Source: Candidatus Moranbacteria bacterium RIFOXYA12_FULL_35_19
GTDB taxonomy: Bacteria > Patescibacteriota > Minisyncoccia > Moranbacterales > UBA2206
DNA: 46,293 nucleotides
NCBI GenBank assembly: GCA_001784805.1
Contig: MFSE01000025.1
Coordinates: forward strand, 1-46,293
Reading direction: 5' to 3'
Part shown: positions 1,493 through 14,073 of the stretch, in pieces
How positions within the stretch are numbered: the first letter of the stretch is position 1
How the letters are laid out: the number at the start of each line of letters is the position of its first letter
The notes under the pieces: generated by a model
The model's database searches: none
Told to the model about the DNA's origin: nothing
What the model saw: only the letters and a program-made list of their open reading frames with translations
Position numbers and translations under genes: made by a program

Positions 1493-3573
1493 TCCCCACT
1501 GATTATTCCTTCAGAAACACTTTTTGGTACTTCGGCATAGTGAGAAAATTCCATCACATAGTTGGCGCGACCTTGGGTCATGCTACGAAGTTGAGTGGCA
1601 TAACCAAACATTGAAGCGAGTGGCACTTCCGCGTTAATTTCTTTCACTCGCGCGTTGCCTTCGCCTCGATCATTCATTTCTTTGATGATACCTCGTTTGG
1701 AATTTAGATCACCCACTACATCGCCCATAAAATTTTCTGGAGTCGTCACTACTGTTTTCATAATCGGTTCCATAATAATCGGGGTTGCTCGGCGACAAGC
1801 TTCTTTGAAAGCCATCGATCCGGCAATTCTAAAGGCCGCTTCCGATGAGTCCACTTCATGAAAAGATCCATCATAAACTGTAGCTTTGATATCCACCATT
1901 GGATATCCCGCCAAAACTCCGCTATCCATTGCGTCCTTGATTCCTTTTTGAATCGGCGTGATATATTCCTGCGGGATAACTCCACCTTTAATTTCATCCA
2001 CAAATTCAAAGCCCTTACCAGCCTCTTGCGGTTCAACTTTGACCCAGCAATGACCGTACTGTCCGCGTCCACCAGATTGTCGAATATATTTTCCTTCCGC
2101 TTGGGCTCCCGCTTTGATTGTTTCTCGGTAAGCCACTTGGGGTGCTCCGATGTTAGCTTCTACTTTAAATTCTCTTTTCATTCGATCAACAATGATATCC
2201 AAATGTAATTCTCCCATTCCGGAAATAATAGTTTGAGAAGTTTCTTCATCCGTTCGCACCTTGAAAGTTGGATCTTCTTCCGCTAATTTTCGCAGAGCCA
2301 TTCCCATTTTTTCTTGATCAGCTTTAGTTTTTGGTTCCACTGCAATCGAAATAACTGGCTCCGGAAAAGTTATTTTTTCTAGCAGTATCGGATTTTCCGG
2401 ATCACATAAAGTATCTCCCGTAGTGGTGTTTTTCATTCCAACTAAAGCTCCGATTCCACCCGTATGAATTTCATCCACTTCTTCTCGGTGATTAGCATGC
2501 ATTCGCAAAATTCGGCCCACTCTTTCTTTTTCTCCCTTAGAAGAATTTAGAATATATGATCCAGCTTTTAACATTCCACTATAAACTCGAAAAAAAGTTA
2601 GCTGTCCCACGAAAGGATCAGTTGCTACTTTAAAAGCCAACGCAGAAAAAGGAGCGCTGTCATCATATTTAACCGCCACTTCTTTAGTTTCATCTTCTAT
2701 TTCCGTAGCCTTGATTGCTGGCACATCAATTGGTGATGGCAGATAATCTATTACCGCGTCTAAAACTAATTGCACACCTTTGTTTCGAAGCGCTGTACCG
2801 GTAAAAACTGGAACGAGTGCCACTCGAATAACCGCTTGGCGCAAAGCTTGTTTCAATTCATCTTGTGAAATTTCTTCTCCATTTAAAAATTTTTCAGTAA
2901 GTTTATCATTTGTTTCCGAAATTTTTTCCACCATTTTTTCTCGCCACTCTTTAGCTTTGTCTAACATCTCCGCTGGAATTTCTCCTTCGTTGACAATTTC
3001 TCCCATCTCACCAGAAAAAGTATAGGCTTTCATTTTTATCAAATCCACTACACCAGAAAAATCCCCTCGTTCGCCAATTGGCAATTGCACTGCCACAGCA
3101 TTGGGCGTAAGACGATCCCAAATAGTTTTTAGGGCATAATAAAAATCCGCGCCCTCTTTGTCAATTTTATTAATAAAACAAATGCGTGGCACTTTATATT
3201 TTTCTGCTTGACGCCAAACAGTTTCCGATTGTGGTTCCACGCCTTCCTTGCCGTCAAAAACTACCACGCCACCATCAAGCACGCGCAGAGATCTTTCCAC
3301 TTCCACAGTAAAGTCCACATGCCCTGGAGTATCGATAATGTTGATTTGATGATCTTTCCAAAAACAAGTAGTCGCCGCTGAAGTAATCGTAATTCCCCGC
3401 TCTTTTTCCTGCTCCATCCAGTCCATCACCGCCGCCCCTTCATGGACTTCTCCAATTTTGTGAGTAATGCCAGTATAAAATAAAACCCTTTCAGTGGTCG
3501 TAGTTTTCCCCGCATCAATATGAGCGATAATTCCGATGTTGCGATATTTGTCTATACTATATTCTCTCGGCAT
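1483..3573 (-). CDS. fusA: elongation factor G
   Basis: A 696-aa translational GTPase that drives ribosomal translocation and, with RRF, ribosome recycling. The P-loop [19 protein letters not shown] is at residues 17-35, followed by the switch region [19 protein letters not shown] and NKID. Domains II-V are complete and end in [12 protein letters not shown]. The length is normal for EF-G. It is the last gene of the str operon after rpsL and rpsG. There is no Shine-Dalgarno before the ATG, and a 92-bp inverted repeat separates it from rpsG. It is followed by the terminator module at 1391-1492. Confidence 0.98.
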
Positions 3574-3610
3574 ATAATTTAATTTTTACTTTCTTAATTT
3601 TATTTATTCT

Positions 3611-3702
3611 CCTACAAAATTACAAAAATTTACAAAAATACAAAAGTACAAAAAACGCTTTTGTATTTTTGTATTTTTGTAAACTATTTGTACATTTGTA
3701 GG
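3611..3702. repeat. long AT-rich inverted repeat between rpsG and fusA
   Basis: The spacer begins CCTACAAA and ends TTTGTAGG. Its centre pairs tandem ACAAAAAT units against TTTTTGTAT units around the short loop ACGC. It starts one base after the rpsG stop codon. As RNA it would form a long, weak A-U hairpin that could protect rpsG mRNA, attenuate fusA or act as a processing site. It may equally be a palindromic insertion. Confidence 0.75.
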
Positions 3703-3703
3703 A

Positions 3704-4171
3704 TTATGCGAAGTGTGCGAAGGCCTTATTAGCATCCGCCATTCGGTGGACATCTTCTCTTTTTTTCATAGCCCCACCAGTTTTATTTGAAGCATCAATA
3801 AGTTCATCGGCTAATTTTTCCGCCATCTTTTTGCCTTTTTTTGCTTTAACTGCATTTTTTATCCAGCGAATAGCCAAAGTAATTCTTCTTTCTCCCGCTA
3901 CAGGAATAGGCACTTGATAATTGGCTCCGCCGACTCGGCGAGATTTGAGTTCTACCAATGGAGAAACATTTTTTATCGCTTGTTCAAAAACATTTAAGCC
4001 TCCTTTTTTTGTTCGTTCATGAATTATTTCAAAAGCATCATACATTATTTTTTCCACCGCATTTTTCTTCCCGTCTTTCATAATGCTCATCATAAACTTC
4101 CCCACCAGCATATTATTATACTTTGGGTCAGGTTTGGTATTTTTTGGATAAATTCTTTTTCGTCGTGCCAT
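3704..4171 (-). CDS. rpsG: 30S ribosomal protein S7
   Basis: A 155-aa primary 16S rRNA-binding protein that nucleates the 30S head. It shows the family pattern MARRKRIYPKNT at the start, KFMMSIMKDGKK, ALKVSP-like NVSPLVELKSRRVGGANYQVP and the C-terminal KKREDVHRMADANKAFAHF. The length is normal. It lies 92 bases downstream of rpsL and is co-transcribed with fusA. No Shine-Dalgarno is visible before the ATG. Confidence 0.97.
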   Translation of the reverse strand: MARRKRIYPKNTKPDPKYNNMLVGKFMMSIMKDGKKNAVEKIMYDAFEIIHERTKKGGLNVFEQAIKNVSPLVELKSRRVGGANYQVPIPVAGERRITLAIRWIKNAVKAKKGKKMAEKLADELIDASNKTGGAMKKREDVHRMADANKAFAHFA

Positions 4172-4263
4172 ATATTCTAATTGTCGCTAATGTTTATACT
4201 AATGTATTCAAATAAATTATTCGCATTTATTAGTTTTTCCATTTGCAATTTATTAGCATTTAG

Positions 4264-4683
4264 TTACTCCTTAGCTTTTTCCCTCTTCGCTCCATATTTC
4301 GATCGGCCTTTTTTTCTGTTAGCCGTTCCAGCGCTGTCTAATACTCCCCGAACGATATGATATCTGACTCCTGGAAGATCTTTCACTCGACCTCCACGAA
4401 TCATTACAATAGAATGTTCTTGTAAATTATGTCCAATGCCAGGGATATAGGCAGTCACTTCCATTCCATTTGTCAGACGAACTCTGGCAATTTTTCGCAA
4501 AGCCGAGTTTGGTTTTTTAGGAGTAGTGGTGGAAACTTTCAGACATACTCCTCGCTTAAACGGTCCGTTAGTATCTACGGGTTTATTTTTAATTGTATTG
4601 AAAACATATTTAAAAGCCGGCGTTTTATTTTTTTGCTTGCTTGTTTTTCTCGGCTTCCTTTTAAGTTGATTGATTGTTGGCAT
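4264..4683 (-). CDS. rpsL: 30S ribosomal protein S12
   Basis: A 139-aa decoding-centre protein. It contains [17 protein letters not shown] and the loop [19 protein letters not shown], which carry the lysines contacted by streptomycin in other bacteria, and ends in a basic tail. It is the first gene of the str operon, preceded by a strong promoter and a short leader with a hairpin. No ribosome-binding site precedes the ATG. Confidence 0.98.
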
Positions 4684-4706
4684 ATAAATATAAACTAAAA
4701 AAATAT

Positions 4707-4773
4707 GGAATCGAATGAATTCGTTCCAACATCCATGTAAAACAATCTTAAACGATTAGAAATATTATGTCAA
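4707..4773 (-). promoter_or_regulatory. str operon promoter and leader hairpin
   Basis: On the minus strand TTGACA (4768-4773), a 17-bp spacer and TAAGAT (4745-4750) form a near-consensus sigma70 promoter. The leader of about 55 nt contains the hairpin GGAACGAATTCATTCGATTCC (about 4707-4728) just before rpsL. The hairpin could be a ribosomal-protein binding site, which is inferred. Confidence 0.8.
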
Positions 4774-4786
4774 TAGCTCGACATTT

Positions 4787-5509
4787 TTAATTTCTAAACT
4801 CCGGAATTTTGTTTTCAAATGGACGGCCAGCTTTTTTCCAAGCAGAAAAAGTATTGAATTTTGCATAGTTGATAGTCATAATTTTTTCCTTAGCCTCATC
4901 CTTCCCACAAGTACGAGAAAAATACACGACATATTCTGGTTTTTTTATCCAACTCAATGAGTTGGCCAACTCAAAAAGATCACAAATAACTTTATCAGTT
5001 TTTTCTTCAAAATCAGAAAATGCGCTTACCTCAAAAATCATTTTGACATTTCCCTTTTCGCAATTCACAATCACATCCGCTTCAATATAGTGTTTACCTT
5101 CTTTTGGACCAACTTTCACATATCTTCCAAATTCGACAAGATCAAGTGGGTATTTATGTTTCTCAACTAATTCTACATAGAGTTGGGCTTTGACAAGATT
5201 TTCTTCTTGTTCTTTTGTTTTTTGGTTATCTCCGGATAAATACACCACTCTTGATTCATCACGGATAATCAAAGTTTTAGCAAAAACCTGCGAAGCATAT
5301 TTTCTTTCTCCACCATCAGACAAACAAAATCCCCTGCTATTATTTTTGTTTTCCCAAAGTGCTTCAAATTTTTTCGCTGAAAGAACCACCATTTTAGGAC
5401 AACCCCTTTCTGTGAGTGTATAATACACATCACCTTTTTGCACTTCTTCAGCAATACCAAAAATATTCTTTCTGGCCGAGGTAATCGACAAAGTTGTTTT
5501 TGCACGCAT
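4787..5509 (-). CDS. Phd/YefM antitoxin domain fused to HsdR_N-like nuclease domain
   Basis: A 240-aa two-domain protein. Residues 1-55 look like a Phd/YefM DNA-binding antitoxin (SITSARKNIFGIAEEVQKG, then YYTLTERGCPKMVVLSAKKFEAL). Residues about 95-215 resemble the type I restriction HsdR N-terminal / PD-(D/E)XK domain: YVELVEKHKYPLDLVEFGR, IEADVIV (D145) and IFEVSAFSD (E160). The usual lysine of E-V-K is Ser162, so cleavage activity is doubtful. The promoter region has two direct repeats that suit autoregulation by the Phd part. There is no separate toxin gene; radC lies upstream. I do not know a characterised example of this fusion. Confidence 0.65.
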   Translation of the reverse strand: MRAKTTLSITSARKNIFGIAEEVQKGDVYYTLTERGCPKMVVLSAKKFEALWENKNNSRGFCLSDGGERKYASQVFAKTLIIRDESRVVYLSGDNQKTKEQEENLVKAQLYVELVEKHKYPLDLVEFGRYVKVGPKEGKHYIEADVIVNCEKGNVKMIFEVSAFSDFEEKTDKVICDLFELANSLSWIKKPEYVVYFSRTCGKDEAKEKIMTINYAKFNTFSAWKKAGRPFENKIPEFRN

Positions 5510-5535
5510 AATTGATTTTAAATTTAAAAGTTATG

Positions 5536-5558
5536 CGTACATAATAGCGTACATATTA
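5536..5558 (-). promoter_or_regulatory. direct-repeat operator overlapping the Phd-fusion promoter
   Basis: GCGTACATAAT (5536-5546) is followed with 12-bp periodicity by GCGTACATATT (5548-5558). On the minus strand the intervening TATTAT can serve as a -10 box about 30 nt before the start codon. Tandem repeats over a promoter are the usual arrangement for Phd-type autoregulation. The operator role is inferred. Confidence 0.55.
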
Positions 5559-5560
5559 TT

Positions 5561-6226
5561 TTATAGCAAGCCTTCACATTTCAAACTTAAAAAAGAGTTT
5601 TCGCTCACAATCACATGATCAATTATTTCAATGCCCAAAATATTCCCCGCTTCCACTAATCGCTTAGTGATTTGTAAGTCATCGGCCGAAGGATTGACAT
5701 CCCCTGATGGATGGTTGTGGCAAATTATTATTTGCGCGGCACAGTGGCGAATAGCTGGTTCAAAAACTTCCCGCGGATGAATCAAATTAGCATTAAGTAT
5801 TCCCACAGAAATAATTTCCCGTTGAATTTTTTGATTGCGCGTATCTAAATAGAAAACAACGAAGTGCTCTTTTTTGTTGTCGCGAATATCTTTCAAATTT
5901 TCCCAAGTGTCACGCGGGGACAAAATCAGTTCAGTTTTTTTGCCATTGAGAAATCTGCGTCCCAACTCAAAGCAAGCTAAAATTTCCGCTGATTTGACAG
6001 GACCGAGCCCAGAAGTTTCTTTTAATTCGAAAAAACTAGCTTTGGAAAAACCTTCCTTGCCAAATTTCCTGATAATTTTTTTCGAAATTTCAACTACATT
6101 AGCATCCTTATTGCCAGTTCGAAGCAAAATCGCCAAAAGCTCTGCATCAGACAATTTCTCCGGTCCATATTTTTCCATTTTTTCCCGCGGTCGATCAACA
6201 CGCGGAAGATCTTTTATTTTTGACAT
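5561..6226 (-). CDS. radC: RadC family JAB/MPN protein
   Basis: A 221-aa protein. Residues 1-90 form the helical UPF0758 N-terminal region with helix-hairpin-helix features (LSDAELLAILLRTG, SGLGPVKSAEIL). The C-terminal JAB/MPN metalloprotease-like domain has the HxHPSG motif CHNHPSGDVNPSADD. The molecular role in DNA repair is disputed. I chose the ATG at 6226 because MSKIKDLPRVDRPREKM matches the usual family start. An in-frame GTG at 6253 sits immediately behind the preceding gene's stop. Neither has a ribosome-binding site. Confidence 0.92.
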   Translation of the reverse strand: MSKIKDLPRVDRPREKMEKYGPEKLSDAELLAILLRTGNKDANVVEISKKIIRKFGKEGFSKASFFELKETSGLGPVKSAEILACFELGRRFLNGKKTELILSPRDTWENLKDIRDNKKEHFVVFYLDTRNQKIQREIISVGILNANLIHPREVFEPAIRHCAAQIIICHNHPSGDVNPSADDLQITKRLVEAGNILGIEIIDHVIVSENSFLSLKCEGLL

Positions 6227-6254
6227 TTGTTTGAAAAAAATATTACTAAGCACT

Positions 6255-8906
6255 TTACATTTTCATCTCCCCCAAATTGCTAATCAAAACACTTCTAGCT
6301 GGCTCGAGGATATTTTTAGCCACCGCTTTTTCTTTTTGGATTTTTTCAATGAGATCATTCGCTTCACGATTGATATTTCTGGCAAGATTTTTGAGCAGTT
6401 GATTCTTGAATTTGACCGGCCACGGACTAAGATTAATAGCGTCATAGAGCATTTTTTGGATTTTAATTACTCTCAATTTTGCATCAAGATAATTTTTAGT
6501 AGCTTTTTTAGTGATAAGTTTGTTTTGATAATAGTGTTCGACATTTTCGATTATAGAATCGATAGTTGGTTGGATTGAAAAAGCTATTATTTCTTCCTTG
6601 AAATTTCCCGCTTTGTCCATTGCTGATATTTTAAAGTTATGCTCGCCTTTTGTCAGATAGGCCATATCAATTTCATTTTTAGAAAATATTTTTTCATCCA
6701 AAAATATTTTTGTTTTTTCTTCGTCCACTTCGGAAGAATCATCAGTAATGGAAAAATCTATTGGAACAATCTCATCACTTAGATATATTTTGTTTTGCGG
6801 ACTGGAAATTGTGATTGTTGGAGCAATGACATCTTTTTCTTCGGTGATTATTTCATTTTCCAAAACTTCCACCGTTTTTTCTTCTTGAATTCCATTTTCC
6901 GCTGTGCCAATTATTTCGCCTATAATTTCACTGGCAACGCCAGAATCGTCTTCGGAAATCTTCGCTATTTCAATTCTATATTCCCCATCCCCCGTGCCTT
7001 GGGTAATGACTTTATATTCACCATTTTCCGGATTAGGAACGGTCAAAAATTCATTTTCTGTTTCATATCCAGAATAATACGCCCCGTCGATTTGTTCACC
7101 TTCATCCAAATTATTTATATTTTTTCCCGCCCATTGTCCGTTTGGGGAAACTATTTGAATGTCGATGGGAGAAAAAACTGAAGTTATTAATATATCCTTA
7201 ATCATAGAATCTCTATTTTCATTTTCCGGTCTAATTCCAGTCAGAAATTCTAGGACATCTTTTTGTGCATCAGTAGGAAGATTGCGATGGACTGAATTAA
7301 TTTCCATATATTCATCCGCTGGAATATTTTCACTCTTAGCTGATTCATATGGAACAGTTCCATCTTCACTTCCCTTTATCATTCCCCTATCACCAATCAA
7401 TGGAATTTCAAATCCTAAAGGATAACCATGATCCCAAAATTTTCCCATATCAGCATTAATAATCTTAAATCCAGCAATTGTTCCCGTATCACTTCCAGCC
7501 TTTCCAATAATTTTATCGAATTCTACTTTCCTCAACTTAGCAATATTTTCCGCTTGATTCAGATTTTCCAAAAATTCATTTTTTGGATAACCACTTGGAT
7601 AAATTTCATATTCATAATTATTTTCAACATCTTGCAAATAACTATATATTGGCAAAAGTTGTTCCAAAGAAGATACTGGTTTTTGATGAATGTAATCAAA
7701 TCTATCCGCATATTGCCCAGCACTTTCTTTAACCTTTTGATCTAATATTCTTTTGGCATACAAATCAGATCCGCCCCAAAACCAAGCATCGCCGTCCCAT
7801 TTCAAATAAGCTTCCGGCGCACCATTTTGTGGCGTGCCAAGTGTTATCAGTTGATCGATATCATCTGCATAATTTTCCGACTCAATATATTCTCGTGTCA
7901 AAAGTCCGCCCATCGAATGCGCCACTATGTCAACTTTCGACCAATTATTGGCGGTTTTTATTTCTTGGATTTTAATTTTTAACAATTCAGCGCTCTCAAT
8001 ATTACTTTTCTCCCAATCATATCCGAAGGTAAAAAGATCTTTTTCTGGAACATAACCATTATCCGCAAATTCCTTATATAGATTATCATAAGTATGCCAG
8101 ACTGGATCGATAGTCCATTTTCCATTTATTTCTTGAGATCCCAAAATCCCTGGCACAATAATCACCGGATCATGAAAATTAGGTTCAGCAAGCCAGCTAG
8201 AAGAATTAATTGTTCCAGAAACCGGCCAACAAGCATTATATATTTCACAATTTTTAATCGGACCAGCAGGATTCCCCCACCAATTATAGCGAAAATCAGC
8301 TGTTCCAGAAGTTTTGGTCCGTATCACTTCATATTGAAAATTATTCAAAAACTTGGAACGATTAACTTTAACCGTTGAATTGCTTCCTGTTATAGAAACT
8401 GCAATTAAATTGTCATGAAAATTGACATTTTGCGCACTAAATTTTCCACCATTAACATCCACCGCCCCTTGCATCGGACCATAAGCATAAGCCGTGTTCA
8501 AAATTGATTTTTTTTCTGCTGAAAAAGCCGAAGTGCCCCCACCTGTCACATCTGCATTGATCAATTCAAAATTTCCTCCAGAAAGAACTTCAAAAAAATA
8601 GCCGTAAGAGCCATCCTTTTTCTTTATTTTCACCGGCTCGTTTAGTGTTCCTTTGATAATCAACTCTCCTTCAATATCAACTTGAGCATTATCCATAGTG
8701 ATTGTCACTCCTTTTTTGACTACTACTGTTTTCCCCTCCGGTATTTCCATTTCTCCGCTAATTTCAAAGTCCTCTGTTATTTCCGTGTAATCTTCTTCTA
8801 GTAATGGATTTTCTTGAGAAAAAACAACGCGACTTATCGGAGAAATCGGAATAAAAGAAATTAAAATTGATAAAAAAATAACTAACGCTGTTTTATTTTT
8901 TTTCAT
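6255..8906 (-). CDS. secreted alpha/beta hydrolase (LCAT-like lipase/acyltransferase)
   Basis: An 883-aa exported protein. Residues 1-30 are a signal peptide. Residues about 45-235 read as a right-handed beta-helix. Residues about 246-560 are an alpha/beta hydrolase with an LCAT-like start (PVIIVPGILGSQ), a nucleophile elbow AHSMGG (Ser331) and later DGTVPYESA and SVHRNLP, supplying a plausible Asp and His. Ig-like strands (PTITISSPQNKIYLSDEI) and a C-terminal helical tail follow. It probably acts on lipids or esters at the cell surface, which is notable for a lineage that usually scavenges lipids. Its ATG overlaps the upstream small membrane protein gene in an ATGA arrangement, so the two are coupled. 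Confidence 0.8.
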   Translation of the reverse strand: MKKNKTALVIFLSILISFIPISPISRVVFSQENPLLEEDYTEITEDFEISGEMEIPEGKTVVVKKGVTITMDNAQVDIEGELIIKGTLNEPVKIKKKDGSYGYFFEVLSGGNFELINADVTGGGTSAFSAEKKSILNTAYAYGPMQGAVDVNGGKFSAQNVNFHDNLIAVSITGSNSTVKVNRSKFLNNFQYEVIRTKTSGTADFRYNWWGNPAGPIKNCEIYNACWPVSGTINSSSWLAEPNFHDPVIIVPGILGSQEINGKWTIDPVWHTYDNLYKEFADNGYVPEKDLFTFGYDWEKSNIESAELLKIKIQEIKTANNWSKVDIVAHSMGGLLTREYIESENYADDIDQLITLGTPQNGAPEAYLKWDGDAWFWGGSDLYAKRILDQKVKESAGQYADRFDYIHQKPVSSLEQLLPIYSYLQDVENNYEYEIYPSGYPKNEFLENLNQAENIAKLRKVEFDKIIGKAGSDTGTIAGFKIINADMGKFWDHGYPLGFEIPLIGDRGMIKGSEDGTVPYESAKSENIPADEYMEINSVHRNLPTDAQKDVLEFLTGIRPENENRDSMIKDILITSVFSPIDIQIVSPNGQWAGKNINNLDEGEQIDGAYYSGYETENEFLTVPNPENGEYKVITQGTGDGEYRIEIAKISEDDSGVASEIIGEIIGTAENGIQEEKTVEVLENEIITEEKDVIAPTITISSPQNKIYLSDEIVPIDFSITDDSSEVDEEKTKIFLDEKIFSKNEIDMAYLTKGEHNFKISAMDKAGNFKEEIIAFSIQPTIDSIIENVEHYYQNKLITKKATKNYLDAKLRVIKIQKMLYDAINLSPWPVKFKNQLLKNLARNINREANDLIEKIQKEKAVAKNILEPARSVLISNLGEMKM

Positions 8907-9178
8907 TTTTGTTTTTTATTTTTAAAATATTTAATTATTAGATACATGTTTAAAAGAGGCCAGATTAATAATGAAAATATTTGTAACCATTTAATATTAT
9001 AAGAATCAAACATAAATGAACCAATGTTTATTAAAAAACTTAAATTACCTAGCACTGAAAAAACAACCAACGCCAATAATTTTTTTCGAGTTATCGCTAG
9101 TATTATCAATGCAACCACAACCGAAAGCCCCAGAAAAAAAAGGCTAAGGTTTAAATCAAATAATGGATCTGCAAACAT
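8903..9178 (-). CDS. small three-TM membrane protein coupled to the lipase gene
   Basis: A 91-aa protein with three hydrophobic segments (LFFLGLSVVVALIILAIT, LALVVFSVLGNLSFLINIG, LQIFSLLIWPLLNMYLIIKYF) and a lysine-rich end. I chose the ATG at 9178 because GGGAG lies about 8 bases upstream; a TTG 27 bases earlier would place that ribosome site inside the gene. It overlaps the hydrolase gene by 4 bases (ATGA). It may help anchor or export the hydrolase, but this is only positional inference. Confidence 0.75.
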   Translation of the reverse strand: MFADPLFDLNLSLFFLGLSVVVALIILAITRKKLLALVVFSVLGNLSFLINIGSFMFDSYNIKWLQIFSLLIWPLLNMYLIIKYFKNKKQK

Positions 9179-9380
9179 ACTTTTTTCTCCCTCAACCTCC
9201 CGCAAAAATTATATTTATAATTCCAGCTTGAAGCGAGTTTTTTTTATTTTTATTTTATAAATCTACAATGATATTGTATCACTCCGCAAAATTTTGACAA
9301 CTCTTCGGCTGTGGATAACTTTGCCTCCCGCCTCATCGATTATTCGAAAAAAGTGTTACTTAACATGTTACTGAACAAAA

Positions 9381-10145
9381 TTATTTTAAAAATATTTCAA
9401 TCATAAAAAAAACAAACAGTGATACTATAATGATACATACTTTATATCGTATAATAACTGGTTTTCTTTTATCAAAATTATCCAGAATTTCATTAAGCTC
9501 TTCTGTTATTTCATGATAAAGATAATTCAGCTTATCTTGATTATCTCTGTTTCCAATTATTTCCACATGCACTGCTCTATGCAATCTGCGAATATTTTCA
9601 GCTAAATGAAAAATTTTCTCTTTCTTCTTTAAATTACGAATTTCATTTTTAAAATCATTGAACTTAACTTTTTCTTCACTTTCTTTTATGCCCAACCCAT
9701 TTAATCTTTCGTTTAATTCTTCAGACATTATTGGATTAGTAGAAACAATTTTCTTTATATGATCTAGTGCCGAATTAAATGCGATAACTCTTTCATTAAA
9801 TAATGTAAGATGATCAATAAATTTGTCTGATATGCATGGAAGTTCTTTTGCTCCCCGTCGAATTATTTCTGGTATTGATTCAAATTTCAGAGGATAAATT
9901 ATTTTAAGAGGTGAAAAAGATTTTTTGTCAGTGTATGTTTCTTGGGAATACCCGTCACCCCCAAGCCATGATTTTCCTAAAATTTCCAAATCACTTTTTA
10001 GAGAAATAAATAATGCCTTCCATGACTCTAAATCACGAGATAATACTTGGCAATATCCATAGAATGCTAAGACTACTGCGAAATAAGTTAACAAATCGGC
10101 AGAACGAATTTCTTTCCAAAAATTTAAATCAATGCAGATTATCAT
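9381..10145 (-). CDS. two-TM coiled-coil hypothetical protein beside the LexA-MTase gene
   Basis: A 254-aa protein with one hydrophobic segment near residues 18-36 (LLTYFAVVLAFYGYCQVLS) and one at the extreme C-terminus (YKVCIIIVSLFVFFMIEIF). Between them lies a long charged, helical region (EEKVKFNDFKNEIRNLKKKEK). I do not recognise the family. It is divergent from the LexA-methyltransferase gene, sharing a 164-base intergenic region, so it could be co-regulated with it. Membrane proteins with cytoplasmic coiled coils occur as effectors in defence loci, but nothing here proves that role. Confidence 0.7.
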   Translation of the reverse strand: MIICIDLNFWKEIRSADLLTYFAVVLAFYGYCQVLSRDLESWKALFISLKSDLEILGKSWLGGDGYSQETYTDKKSFSPLKIIYPLKFESIPEIIRRGAKELPCISDKFIDHLTLFNERVIAFNSALDHIKKIVSTNPIMSEELNERLNGLGIKESEEKVKFNDFKNEIRNLKKKEKIFHLAENIRRLHRAVHVEIIGNRDNQDKLNYLYHEITEELNEILDNFDKRKPVIIRYKVCIIIVSLFVFFMIEIFLK

Positions 10146-10245
10146 AATAAAAAATTACCTTATTTAAACAAACAACCCCTGCATCAAACCTTTCTTCCAT
10201 TTTTAATTTATTATTTATTTAATTAAAACTGTGGATAACTCGTCT

Positions 10246-10274
10246 TTGCTAGTTCGGTAAATTTTCGGTATAAT
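10246..10274 (+). promoter_or_regulatory. promoter with internal direct repeats before the LexA-MTase gene
   Basis: TTGCTA (10246-10251), a 17-bp spacer and TATAAT (10269-10274) form a strong sigma70 promoter. Inside the spacer and touching the -10 box are two TTCGGTA repeats (10253-10259 and 10264-10270), 11 bp apart, which is one helical turn. A repressor bound there would block RNA polymerase. That the LexA part binds them is inferred. Confidence 0.65.
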
Positions 10275-10309: not shown

Positions 10310-11890
10310 ATGTCTACTCTAACAAAAAAGCAAAAACAAATATTGGATTTTATCAAATCCTACATAAGTAAAAAGGGACTATCCCCTACTATTGAAGAGA
10401 TTAGAAAACACTTCAAACTCTCTGCAGTGTCAACCATTCATCAACATTTGGAAGCACTAGAAAAAAAAGACTTCATTGAAAGAAATGGGAGCTCAGCCAG
10501 AGGAATTGAATTGAAAAAGAAAAATCCTTTCAGTCTTATAAAAATTCCACTAGTCGGAGTGATAACTGCCGGTCAGCCAATCGAAGCTATAGAAACAATA
10601 GGGGAAAGCGTTATGATTGCTTCGGGTAATATAAAAAAAGATGAACAATATTATGCTCTTGAAGTTAGGGGTACGAGCATGATTGATGAGGGAATTTTCG
10701 ATGGTGACATTGTGGTTATAAAAAAACAATCTTCGGCAGAAAATGGCCAGACAGTGGTCGCGATAATTGATGATAACGAAGCCACTTTGAAAAAAATTTA
10801 TCGAGAGAAAAACCAATTTCGACTTCAACCCGCCAATCAAACAATGCTTCCGATCTATAGAAGAGAAGTTGAGATTAGAGGGGTGGTTATTGAAATAAAA
10901 AGAAATTTAGAAAATATCTCTAGCGATTCAAAGCAAAAATTATTCAGAACTCTAGATTTATTTGCCGGAGTTGGAGGAATACGATTAGGTTTTGAAAACG
11001 CAGGCTTTGAAACAGTTTTTGCCAATGATTTTGACAAGCAATGTAAAGACACATATGATTTGAATTTCAAAAAATCAAAACTTATTGTTGAGGATATAAG
11101 AAAAATTGGGATTGATGATTTGCCAGAGTTTGATTTTCTTTTGGGCGGTTTTCCCTGCCAAGCATTTTCAATCGCGGGATATCGAAAAGGATTCAACGAT
11201 GAAAAAGATCGAGGAAATTTATTTTTTGATGTTGCGAGAATTTTGGAAGCTAGAAAACCAGAAGGGTTTCTTTTGGAAAATGTGAAGAATCTCAAAGGTC
11301 ATGACAACGGAAAAACTTTTAGCATAATCATCCAGACGCTAGAAGATTTAGGCTATTATGTGAAAACTAAAGTTTTAAACACTATGGAATATGGGAATGT
11401 TCCACAAAACCGAGAAAGAATTTATATAGTTGGATTTAAAAATAAAGATTATTCAGACAAATTTAAATTTCCAGAGCCACAAAAATTAAAAATAAAAGTC
11501 ACTGACATTTTGGAAAAAAATGTGGATAAAAAATATTATTATAATAGCAAACCACTTTTTGAGAAACTAAAAGATTTTGTAACCGAGGAAGGAAAAGTTT
11601 ATCAGTGGAGACGCCAGTATGTGAGGGAAAATAAAAAGGGAGTATGTCCAACTCTCACTGCTAATATGGGAACAGGTGGACATAATGTTCCAATTATAAA
11701 AGACAAAAAAGGAATCAGGAAACTGACTCCACTTGAATGTTTTAGATTACAAGGATTTCCAAAAACATTTATCCTGCCAAAAAATTTAGCTGATTCTTCT
11801 TTATACAAACAGGCTGGAAATTCTGTTAGTGTCCCTGTGGTTACAGCTGTGGCGAAACAAGTCATGAGAGCGATGGAGACGAATATTTAA
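10310..11890 (+). CDS. LexA repressor fused to C5-cytosine DNA methyltransferase
   Basis: A 526-aa fusion of two complete proteins. Residues 1-200 are LexA: winged HTH (TKKQKQILDFIKSYISKKG, LSAVSTIHQHLEALEKK), Ala87-Gly88 cleavage site in VGVITAGQP, catalytic Ser123 in GTSMIDEG, Lys161 in ATLKKIYRE. Residues about 211-526 are an m5C methyltransferase: motif I DLFAGVGGIRLGFE, motif IV GGFPCQAFS with Cys283, motif VI LLENV, motif VIII QNRER, motif IX LTPLECFRLQGFP and motif X QAGNSVSVP. All key residues of both halves are present, so self-cleavage would release the methyltransferase from its DNA-binding domain. The promoter has paired TTCGGTA repeats. The stop codon overlaps that of the convergent candidate endonuclease. 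I know of no characterised protein of this architecture. Confidence 0.93.
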   Translation: MSTLTKKQKQILDFIKSYISKKGLSPTIEEIRKHFKLSAVSTIHQHLEALEKKDFIERNGSSARGIELKKKNPFSLIKIPLVGVITAGQPIEAIETIGESVMIASGNIKKDEQYYALEVRGTSMIDEGIFDGDIVVIKKQSSAENGQTVVAIIDDNEATLKKIYREKNQFRLQPANQTMLPIYRREVEIRGVVIEIKRNLENISSDSKQKLFRTLDLFAGVGGIRLGFENAGFETVFANDFDKQCKDTYDLNFKKSKLIVEDIRKIGIDDLPEFDFLLGGFPCQAFSIAGYRKGFNDEKDRGNLFFDVARILEARKPEGFLLENVKNLKGHDNGKTFSIIIQTLEDLGYYVKTKVLNTMEYGNVPQNRERIYIVGFKNKDYSDKFKFPEPQKLKIKVTDILEKNVDKKYYYNSKPLFEKLKDFVTEEGKVYQWRRQYVRENKKGVCPTLTANMGTGGHNVPIIKDKKGIRKLTPLECFRLQGFPKTFILPKNLADSSLYKQAGNSVSVPVVTAVAKQVMRAMETNI

Positions 11891-12732
11891 ACTTCAAAAT
11901 TCAATTTAATATCTTTAATCTTTTCTATTTGTTCCTGCAAGTATTTTTCATTGATATTTTTTTCTCTTAAATCAATCTTGATAGAATTAAAAGATGTTGT
12001 TATTTTTATAGCCTTATTATCATCTATCCACCTTTTTGGACGAATTCTTAATTCAAGTCTTTTTTTAGCTTTATATATTTTTGTGTTTCCATAATCGCTA
12101 GATATAAAATTGTTCAAAAAAACAGAGTTACGAGTTGTCCTTAACGTATTAACACTTACTGAATTTAAATTTTTTAAATTTAAGACTGCACCAGCAAAAT
12201 AAAAGTTCGCGCCTACTTTTTGAACGCCTGGTCTAAGTATAAAAAAATAATAAATTTTCTTTATAAAAGGGTAATCCTTTTTTAAATCTCTGTATTTTTT
12301 CTTATACAATTTTACCCATTTATCCTTAATTTCTTCATAATTTTTTGATGAAAATAAAACGTCTAAATTAATACCTGCGTCTGAAAAATTTTGACCAAGT
12401 GAGGCCTCTCCACTTTCTAAATTTCTAACATTTCCCAACTCATCAACTTTAATATTAAGCATTTTTATATCCGCACCCCAATGCTCTCGATCATTATAAA
12501 TGTCTACCGGATATGAACCGGCTCCGACAGGCTTAACATTCAATGCTTGCGTGAACCATTGTTCAATATGCTCTTTGGGTATCTGGATTGGTAAATCTTT
12601 TTGACCAGTCTTAGTTTCTGGCTGAGAAAACAACGATTTGATAATAAAATACCTTATTATATTTTTTGCTTTATCATCTAAAAAATTTGCTAATTCACTC
12701 TGCTTTAATGGTTGTATTACAAGTTTTTCCAT
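11887..12732 (-). CDS. candidate restriction endonuclease partner of the LexA-MTase
   Basis: A 281-aa protein that I do not recognise by family. It has GAGSYPVDIYNDREHWGADIK near residues 70-90, where D77 followed by D88-I-K90 fits a PD-(D/E)XK core, followed by E106 and E109. The C-terminal half is basic and rich in strands (YKAKKRLELRIRPKRWIDD). It is convergent with the methyltransferase gene, sharing the four bases TTAA at the two stop codons, and follows an AbrB-like gene by 19 bases. Position and the acidic cluster together suggest a type II endonuclease. The family call is inference. Confidence 0.5.
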   Translation of the reverse strand: MEKLVIQPLKQSELANFLDDKAKNIIRYFIIKSLFSQPETKTGQKDLPIQIPKEHIEQWFTQALNVKPVGAGSYPVDIYNDREHWGADIKMLNIKVDELGNVRNLESGEASLGQNFSDAGINLDVLFSSKNYEEIKDKWVKLYKKKYRDLKKDYPFIKKIYYFFILRPGVQKVGANFYFAGAVLNLKNLNSVSVNTLRTTRNSVFLNNFISSDYGNTKIYKAKKRLELRIRPKRWIDDNKAIKITTSFNSIKIDLREKNINEKYLQEQIEKIKDIKLNFEV

Positions 12733-12751: not shown

Positions 12752-12934
12752 TTATTTTTTATACTTCCAATCCTTAATCATAATCCCACCAGCCACTCTT
12801 TTCACAATCACCTTCTGCTTATCCTTCCACCCCAATTCCCTCACAATTTCAATCGGCAAGGTGACGGCGATTGATTTTTTACCAACTTTGGTTAGTTTTC
12901 GAATATCTCTCTCGGTTGATTTTTTGTTTGCCAT
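12752..12934 (-). CDS. SpoVT/AbrB-like DNA-binding protein
   Basis: A 60-aa swapped-hairpin AbrB domain: RKLTKVGKKSIAVTLP, then EIVRELGWKDKQKVIVKRV and GGIMIKDWK. Such proteins act as transcription regulators or as antitoxins. It is the first gene of a two-gene unit with the candidate endonuclease 19 bases downstream. Its promoter carries a perfect 7-1-7 palindrome, which suggests autorepression that would also control the endonuclease. There is no Shine-Dalgarno. Confidence 0.85.
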   Translation of the reverse strand: MANKKSTERDIRKLTKVGKKSIAVTLPIEIVRELGWKDKQKVIVKRVAGGIMIKDWKYKK

Positions 12935-13053: not shown

Positions 13054-14073
13054 CTAATATTCTCCCAGTATTTTTAAAATCTTTTTCGAAAGACAGCTAA
13101 ATTCTTTTTGCGATTGTTCCAAATTTTCTTTTGTTCCTTTTATATTTTCAAAACCATCAATAACTGGGTCAAGATTGAAAATAGCCTTATTTTTGATTTG
13201 TGCTAACGGAGATAATTGCCCAAAGTCTTTAATTAAGGCCAATTCCGACTTCCATGATTTTTCAACCAGACCATTACGACAATGCTTTTCTGATAAATAC
13301 TTTTTAATATGCAATGGAATTTTTTCAATCCACTCTTCATTGCTTTTGATGGGTTTTTTTGAATATTGATTGTATGAATTTATTACATAGCCTATGAATA
13401 AACCTTCGCCATCCAGAACTTTGTTATGAGGAATCCCCTTGTCCTTTGCCAAAACTCGAGCAGTTTTTTTCCAGTTATCTTTCCATTCCTCAAAAGTGTT
13501 TCCTAAATTTTCAATGCCTTGAACGGAAAAAGCGTCTGGCATCAATGGTGTGATAAAATAATCAGAACCTAAAAATATTACTCTGTTTAAAAGATTAAGA
13601 TTCGGAGATGTATCGATAATAAAAAGGTCAATTTCTTCATCCAGCCCTTTTTCGGTTAGAAATCTATCAATCGCACTTGTGATAAAAAATCCTCGTTCAA
13701 CGCCTTGTGCCGCCTCTCCATAAGATGAGATTAAGGAATTTTCATATTGAGACAACTTAAGACTACCTGATAAAATAAATAGATTATCATTGGTTCCAAT
13801 TTTTTCAAAATTAACATTCTTGTCTATATCAGTGCCACCTTTAATAATACCTTCAAGAACTGTATAGATTGTTTTTTGATTATCAGAGAACAGATTTTTT
13901 TCAAACATGCCAAGTGCCAGCCTAGATAAATTACACTGCGGATCTAAATCCACCAAAACAGTTTTGTATCCCATCTCTGAAAACTTAACCGCACAATTAA
14001 AAGCCAGTGTAGTTTTGCCTACCCCACCTTTATTATTGGCAAATAAAAGTTTTTTTGTTCTGGCGAATTTCAT
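13054..14073 (-). CDS. ParA/Soj family ATPase
   Basis: A 339-aa protein with the deviant Walker A motif NNKGGVGKTTLA (residues about 12-23), VLVDLDPQCNLS (Walker A') and FIIDTSPNLNLLNR (Walker B region). ParA ATPases position DNA or protein cargo. No parB-like gene or parS array is visible next to it, and the protein is longer than minimal ParA, with a C-terminal extension. It lies between the AbrB/endonuclease unit and a decayed HsdS tail, so it may be a mobile-element or defence-island remnant rather than the chromosomal ParA. Confidence 0.85.
   Translation of the reverse strand: MKFARTKKLLFANNKGGVGKTTLAFNCAVKFSEMGYKTVLVDLDPQCNLSRLALGMFEKNLFSDNQKTIYTVLEGIIKGGTDIDKNVNFEKIGTNDNLFILSGSLKLSQYENSLISSYGEAAQGVERGFFITSAIDRFLTEKGLDEEIDLFIIDTSPNLNLLNRVIFLGSDYFITPLMPDAFSVQGIENLGNTFEEWKDNWKKTARVLAKDKGIPHNKVLDGEGLFIGYVINSYNQYSKKPIKSNEEWIEKIPLHIKKYLSEKHCRNGLVEKSWKSELALIKDFGQLSPLAQIKNKAIFNLDPVIDGFENIKGTKENLEQSQKEFSCLSKKILKILGEY

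Follow-up and report, generated by a model that had tools for sequence, protein, structure and literature searches.

A gene in the window, the 46,293-nt stretch of DNA analysed here, encoded what is, by its domain matches, a complete LexA (helix-turn-helix and S24 domains) joined to a complete m5C DNA methyltransferase. LexA is the SOS repressor, which cuts itself after DNA damage. In restriction-modification systems, the methyltransferase labels the DNA of the cell as self. The reading favored for the fusion, with a probability of about 0.68, is that it would be a self-repressing methyltransferase with RecA-triggered cleavage, that is, a damage-sensing feedback on a modification enzyme. The genome to which the window belongs comprised 0.99 Mb in 32 contigs and was 99.5% complete.

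The fusion gene (nt 10,310–11,890, plus strand) was one stop-free frame of 526 aa, starting with an ATG at nt 10,310 and with its stop codon ending at nt 11,890. The initial annotation had proposed an intact LexA and an intact m5C methyltransferase in this frame; both sets of Pfam and NCBIfam domains were complete, and Ala87-Gly88, Ser123, Lys161, and Cys283 were all found at the positions it had named. The LexA half possessed a winged-HTH domain (residues 1–65, nt 10,310–10,504; PF01726 LexA_DNA_bind, 1.6e-18), with a recognition helix at approximately residues 40–48 and Gln45 as the variable contact residue, and an S24 self-cleavage domain (residues 80–194, nt 10,547–10,891; PF00717 Peptidase_S24, 6e-30). 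Against NCBIfam TIGR00498 (lexA) the fusion scored 189 bits (cut-off, 111), covering positions 1–202 of the 203 in the model. A linker at about residues 195–211 (nt 10,892–10,942) joined the two halves; in the structure prediction, residues 200–209 had a pLDDT below 50, as would be expected of a flexible linker. The m5C methyltransferase domain (residues 212–519, nt 10,943–11,866; PF00145 DNA_methylase, 3e-95), also encoded on the plus strand and containing Cys283, scored 348 bits against TIGR00675 (dcm; cut-off, 101), and its best solved relative was M.HhaI (E 1.5e-57). It possessed the catalytic Pro-Cys, Glu-Asn-Val, and Gln-x-Arg-x-Arg of m5C enzymes, the residues P282 C283 Q284, E323 N324 V325, and Q366 R368 R370 being invariant in all 33 aligned m5C fusions.

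A total of 113 LexA-methyltransferase fusions were collected, nearly all from Patescibacteria, encompassing m5C and several amino-methyltransferase types. The m5C Pro-Cys motif was present in 38 of them; the remainder were mostly amino-methyltransferases of several lengths with DPPY, SPPY, NPPY, or DLPY motifs, along with odd forms such as a truncated one at locus L063. One amino-methyltransferase fusion (LexA plus N6_N4_Mtase, 486 aa) was encoded in the same genome as the window, on contig 30 (locus L049, nt 4061–5521), with the operator TTCGGGN5TTCGGG and a convergent neighbor gene of 347 aa. In a rapidly built tree of LexA domains most m5C fusions clustered, yet several changes of methyltransferase type were required, which suggests that the LexA module was probably joined to, or exchanged among, different methyltransferases more than once.

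Of 88 loci, 72 had the next gene pointing towards the fusion and directly adjoining it, with a 4-base overlap in 31; in 13 the gene ran in the same direction. Its product matched endonucleases of the families MvaI/BcnI (15), Bsp6I (11), PDDEXK_5 (6), TaqI (5), Endonuclease VII (5), NgoFVII C (4), BglII (2), Tsp45I, HNH, and others, counts that may overlap. In sister cassettes a gene for an XRE HTH protein of about 73 aa often stood before the endonuclease gene, and the small HTH genes of the cassettes belonged to HTH_3 in 26 of 26 cases. As predicted from their genes, the fusion cassettes are type II restriction-modification cassettes. In the window, a putative restriction endonuclease of 281 aa was encoded convergently at nt 11,887–12,732 (minus strand), overlapping the last 4 bases of the fusion gene. 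It had no match in the profile libraries searched and no fold match at E ≤ 0.001; HincII, DpnI, and other nucleases appeared among fold matches too weak to be usable. Homologues of this protein (69%, 54%, and 39% identity) occupied the same place beside LexA-m5C fusions at loci L096, L157, and L090, and its conserved YPxDxY...GADxK resembled PD-(D/E)xK. Ahead of it, at nt 12,752–12,934 (minus strand) and in the position held by the XRE HTH gene in many sister cassettes, was a gene for a MazE/AbrB-like small DNA-binding protein of 60 aa (PF04014, E 1.4e-7). The window fusion thus appears to be the modification half of a type II cassette, with a putative endonuclease partner belonging to no known family.

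Other genes lay nearby on the minus strand. Two upstream of the fusion (nt 9381–10,145, 254 aa, and nt 8903–9205, 100 aa) had no match in Pfam or PHROGs, and one at nt 13,054–14,073, two genes past the putative endonuclease, encoded a ParA-like ATPase whose PHROGs match was a ParA-like partition family. Bsp6I-type systems recognize GCNGC; its counts were low in the window, but those of some similar motifs were low as well, so the motif was not retained as the specificity of the window system.

Upstream of the fusion gene, a putative core promoter (TTGCTA, 17 bp, TATAAT; nt 10,246–10,274, plus strand) was read from the sequence, and its −35/−10 spacer contained a putative operator, the direct repeat TTCGGT-AAATT-TTCGGT with an 11-bp period (nt 10,253–10,269, plus strand). 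The general form upstream of fusion starts was the direct repeat TTCGGTnnnnnTTCGGT, with variants such as TTCTATnnnnnTTCTAT and the 11-bp period, located just before the −10 element or sometimes after it on the other strand. Operators scoring above threshold were observed in 85 of 93 fusion promoters versus 7.1 in shuffles, and perfect ones in 53 of 93 versus a shuffle mean of 0.1; 8 of the 93 had no clear operator at the chosen start. A search of the fusion promoters for an inverted-repeat operator gave nothing convincing, the element being a direct repeat. The alphaproteobacterial LexA box, GTTC-N7-GTTC, has the same spacing (PMC8565304), and a Patescibacteria LexA study is cited among direct-repeat LexA motifs (PMC7739468).

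Helix and half-site varied together. Of the 205 columns in the LexA half, that of residue 45, in the recognition helix, covaried most strongly with the half-site: TTCGG was paired with Gln or Glu, and Phe, Tyr, or His accompanied TTCTA and TTCGA. Relatedness contributes to this signal, and other columns correlated as well. The exceptions appear to be stronger evidence: helices with Pro41 went with TTAGG sites in 7 of 7 cases and helices with Phe40 with ATCGG sites in 3 of 3, both in different methyltransferase backgrounds. These pairings, the repeated exceptions above all, are good evidence that the LexA arm would bind the direct repeat in its own promoter. Also upstream of the promoter was an exact match to the DnaA-box-like 9-mer TGTGGATAA (nt 10,230–10,238, plus strand), which 58 of 93 fusion genes had in the 150 nt upstream of them, versus a shuffle mean of 0.05, mostly 12–15 bp before the operator. 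With 48 copies in the genome versus 2 of its reverse, it may serve promoters in general.

The residues needed for self-cleavage were compared in 113 fused and 38 stand-alone LexA domains. In the alignment, Ala87, Gly88, Ser123, and Lys161 were identical in 113 of 113 fused domains, and just 18 positions of the LexA half were invariant over these fusions, many of them surrounding the cleavage site and the active site. The cleavage residues are thus, as far as aligned proteins can tell, under absolute constraint across the fusions. Autoproteolysis is the predicted property that this favors, because Ala-Gly, Ser, and Lys stayed constant although few other LexA positions did; such a pattern would be expected from selection for it. 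It also bears on the possibility that the LexA half is a mere autorepressor, like the N-terminal HTH of M.EcoRII and M.SsoII, in which the S24 domain dimerizes and cleavage has no regulatory role. Modification methyltransferases are known to be controlled through autorepression by an N-terminal HTH (PMC3874152; PMC12707154), and the operator evidence fits this explanation equally well. However, dimerization needs none of Ala-Gly, Ser123, and Lys161, which are nevertheless invariant across very different methyltransferases, and a purely autorepressive role is considered unlikely.

For the self-repressing, cleavable methyltransferase, the following course is proposed. A dimer of the fusion would bind its own operator and repress its own gene, keeping the methyltransferase at a set level. 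RecA filaments on damaged DNA, the source of damage perhaps including the partner endonuclease cutting under-methylated host DNA, would lead to cleavage of the Ala87-Gly88 bond. Because the LexA operator lies in the gene's own promoter, this cleavage would release the methyltransferase from its DNA-binding arm and lift repression; with the HTH arm lost, more methyltransferase would be made and the chromosome re-protected. We infer autorepression, RecA-triggered cleavage, and derepression with more methyltransferase after damage from the operator in the gene's own promoter and the retained LexA cleavage residues. The feedback would be a sensible one: when the endonuclease cuts a chromosome that is under-methylated, the resulting damage is itself the signal by which methylation would rise.

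The opposite outcome has also to be weighed, in which the methyltransferase fragment left after damage is degraded, methylation drops, and the endonuclease kills the cell, as altruistic or post-segregational killing. In E. coli, the fragments of LexA are substrates of ClpXP and Lon and are degraded by them. Restriction-modification systems, moreover, can act as addiction modules (PMC3874152). Such a self-destruct device is nonetheless quite improbable, as cleavage would also derepress the methyltransferase gene through the operator in its own promoter. Damage-triggered loss of the methyltransferase and the purely autorepressive LexA would be the main rivals of the damage-sensing feedback.

How far LexA control would reach was assessed from the distribution of operators. 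Exactly two sites of the form TTCGGKN5TTCGGK were observed in the 0.99-Mb genome, 57 bp before the window fusion and 58 bp before the second fusion; no perfect site was present at host DNA-repair genes of this genome, degenerate sites not being excluded by this count. The fusion loci, 0.69 Mb in all, had four perfect repeats beyond the 250-bp zone; two of these fell in the promoter of the fusion itself, whose start had been mis-set, and one preceded another LexA frame, so that, fusion and lexA promoters aside, a single perfect operator was found. Thirty further genomes contained 20 operator sites, of which half belonged to fusion or lexA promoters. This distribution argues that the LexA arm would mainly regulate its own gene. 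The initial annotation had gone further, with restriction-modification tied to the SOS response in one polypeptide. Of that proposal the fusion itself, its cleavage residues, its own operator, and its cassette were supported. Control of the restriction side was not, as the operon of the putative endonuclease in the window had no perfect operator upstream, and neither was derepression of a wider set of LexA targets, the only perfect operators of the genome preceding the two fusion genes.

The same counts tell against the fusion standing in for the housekeeping LexA and controlling the general SOS regulon as well. Similar direct repeats were readable before several stand-alone lexA genes of Patescibacteria, which would be in keeping with such a role; the perfect operator occurred in this genome at fusion genes only, however, the cassettes were sporadic and at high identity across families, and a separate LexA-like gene was present in the same genome, so that this explanation is very improbable. 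This gene, on contig 17, answers the question raised by the initial annotation of whether a second, stand-alone lexA exists. Its product (222 aa, approximately 35% identical to the fusion over residues 1–166) was divergent, with Cys-Gly at the cleavage site, which leaves the SOS circuit of this genome putative and weighs against the damage-feedback model; recA was present. At locus L077 (nt 1594–4236), the gene was followed by a 263-aa gene with no Pfam family and then by an m5C methyltransferase gene, the run lying ahead of a UvrA-like frame. Close relatives keep the homologue of this LexA in another gene context, without the 263-aa gene and methyltransferase pair. Contig 23 of the genome carried a LexA-free m5C methyltransferase gene and, after it, a gene whose product matched EcoRII-C weakly (locus L076, nt 3200–5232).

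Elsewhere, stand-alone LexA genes were directly followed by a methyltransferase gene at loci L070, L072, L129, L140, L150, and L079, and such adjacent pairs are likely to be the two-gene counterpart of the fusion. A frame of approximately 840 aa came directly after the stand-alone LexA gene at L129 (nt 2439–4958) and L140 (nt 4591–7113), the one at L129 containing an m5C methyltransferase and an Eco57I-type methylase domain. At L068 (nt 2286–2687), a Vsr mismatch endonuclease gene separated a LexA gene from one for an m5C methyltransferase.

The full-length fusion was widely distributed. Among 187 related genomes, seven more copies with 70% to 95% identity were observed, both within the genus and in other families, with two of these full-length homologues in a single genome; LexA domains were also seen at the head of other long frames. 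Further homologues came from a second genome collection. In a scan of one genome per species, the best 80 loci were nearly all from Patescibacteria and in their majority fusions; a few bore Armatimonadetes or Omnitrophota names and may be mis-binned contigs. In 380 evenly drawn Patescibacteria genomes, the 22 best-scoring LexA domains, from 20 genomes, all headed frames of at least 494 aa; below these, the matches listed were frames of about 200–280 aa. At 80% cover, the full-length fusion was absent from 72,556 plasmid records, among the matches listed, and from 50,697 phage records; relatives of the LexA half were few in IMG/VR. That an assembly or annotation artefact merged two adjacent genes is hardly conceivable and, as judged from the homologues, already refuted, for although unfused neighboring LexA and methyltransferase genes exist (e.g., L072, L129, and L150), a single open frame recurred in independent genomes and other families at 70% to 95% identity and in more than 100 further fusions, which excludes an error between the two halves as well as a lack of homologues with the same fusion, two of the findings that were to speak against the initial annotation.

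It is a long-standing question how cells spare their chromosome from their restriction enzyme once DNA has been replicated, repaired, or damaged. If the proposed feedback is true, damage itself would turn up protection, a direct answer to the question of self-restriction, by a simple circuit of one polypeptide and one promoter with more than 100 natural variants and a readable recognition code. It would also mean that a regulated form of defence is widespread among uncultivated bacteria whose genomes are very small. On a broader scale, the chances are evenly balanced that these systems form a widespread Patescibacteria type II class, in which the modification enzyme is the damage sensor, RecA-triggered cleavage of the fusion raises its output once DNA is damaged, and the DnaA-box-like element may provide a link to replication. 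In type I systems, other means are known by which restriction is alleviated once DNA has been damaged.

Compared with LexA as defined by TIGR00498, the fusion shared a full-length match above cut-off, the cleavage site, the Ser-Lys dyad, the winged HTH, and a putative operator in its own promoter, whereas it carried a methyltransferase of approximately 310 residues after the usual LexA C-terminus, and the genome had perfect operators for it only at the two fusion genes. C-protein systems such as PvuII and BamHI likewise have a small HTH gene ahead of the endonuclease gene, as in many of the cassettes; here, in contrast, LexA forms part of the methyltransferase as a further regulator, and the small gene in the window is MazE/AbrB-like. 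With Bsp6I-type systems the likeness lies in the Bsp6I-family endonucleases of eleven sister cassettes and in an m5C methyltransferase of a Lactococcus plasmid, approximately 56% identical to that of the window and encoded beside an annotated Bsp6I-family endonuclease; the plasmid methyltransferase, however, lacks LexA, and the endonuclease candidate in the window is of another, unnamed family.

Methyltransferases with an N-terminal repressor domain are known, namely M.EcoRII, M.SsoII, and M.Ecl18kI (PMC3874152; PMC12707154), and what appears to be new is a self-cleaving LexA as that repressor; no description of a LexA-methyltransferase fusion was found in the literature searched, the 2017 Patescibacteria SOS paper lying outside it. 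By domain order and operator covariation, the fusion would fit a dual-function repressor of the M.EcoRII type, with an N-terminal HTH on a modification methyltransferase that is predicted to bind and repress its own promoter. It differs from these enzymes in that their bare HTH is replaced by a complete LexA with a self-cleavage domain, in that the operator is a direct repeat of the LexA type, and in that the same arrangement is found with m5C enzymes and with several types of amino-methyltransferase.
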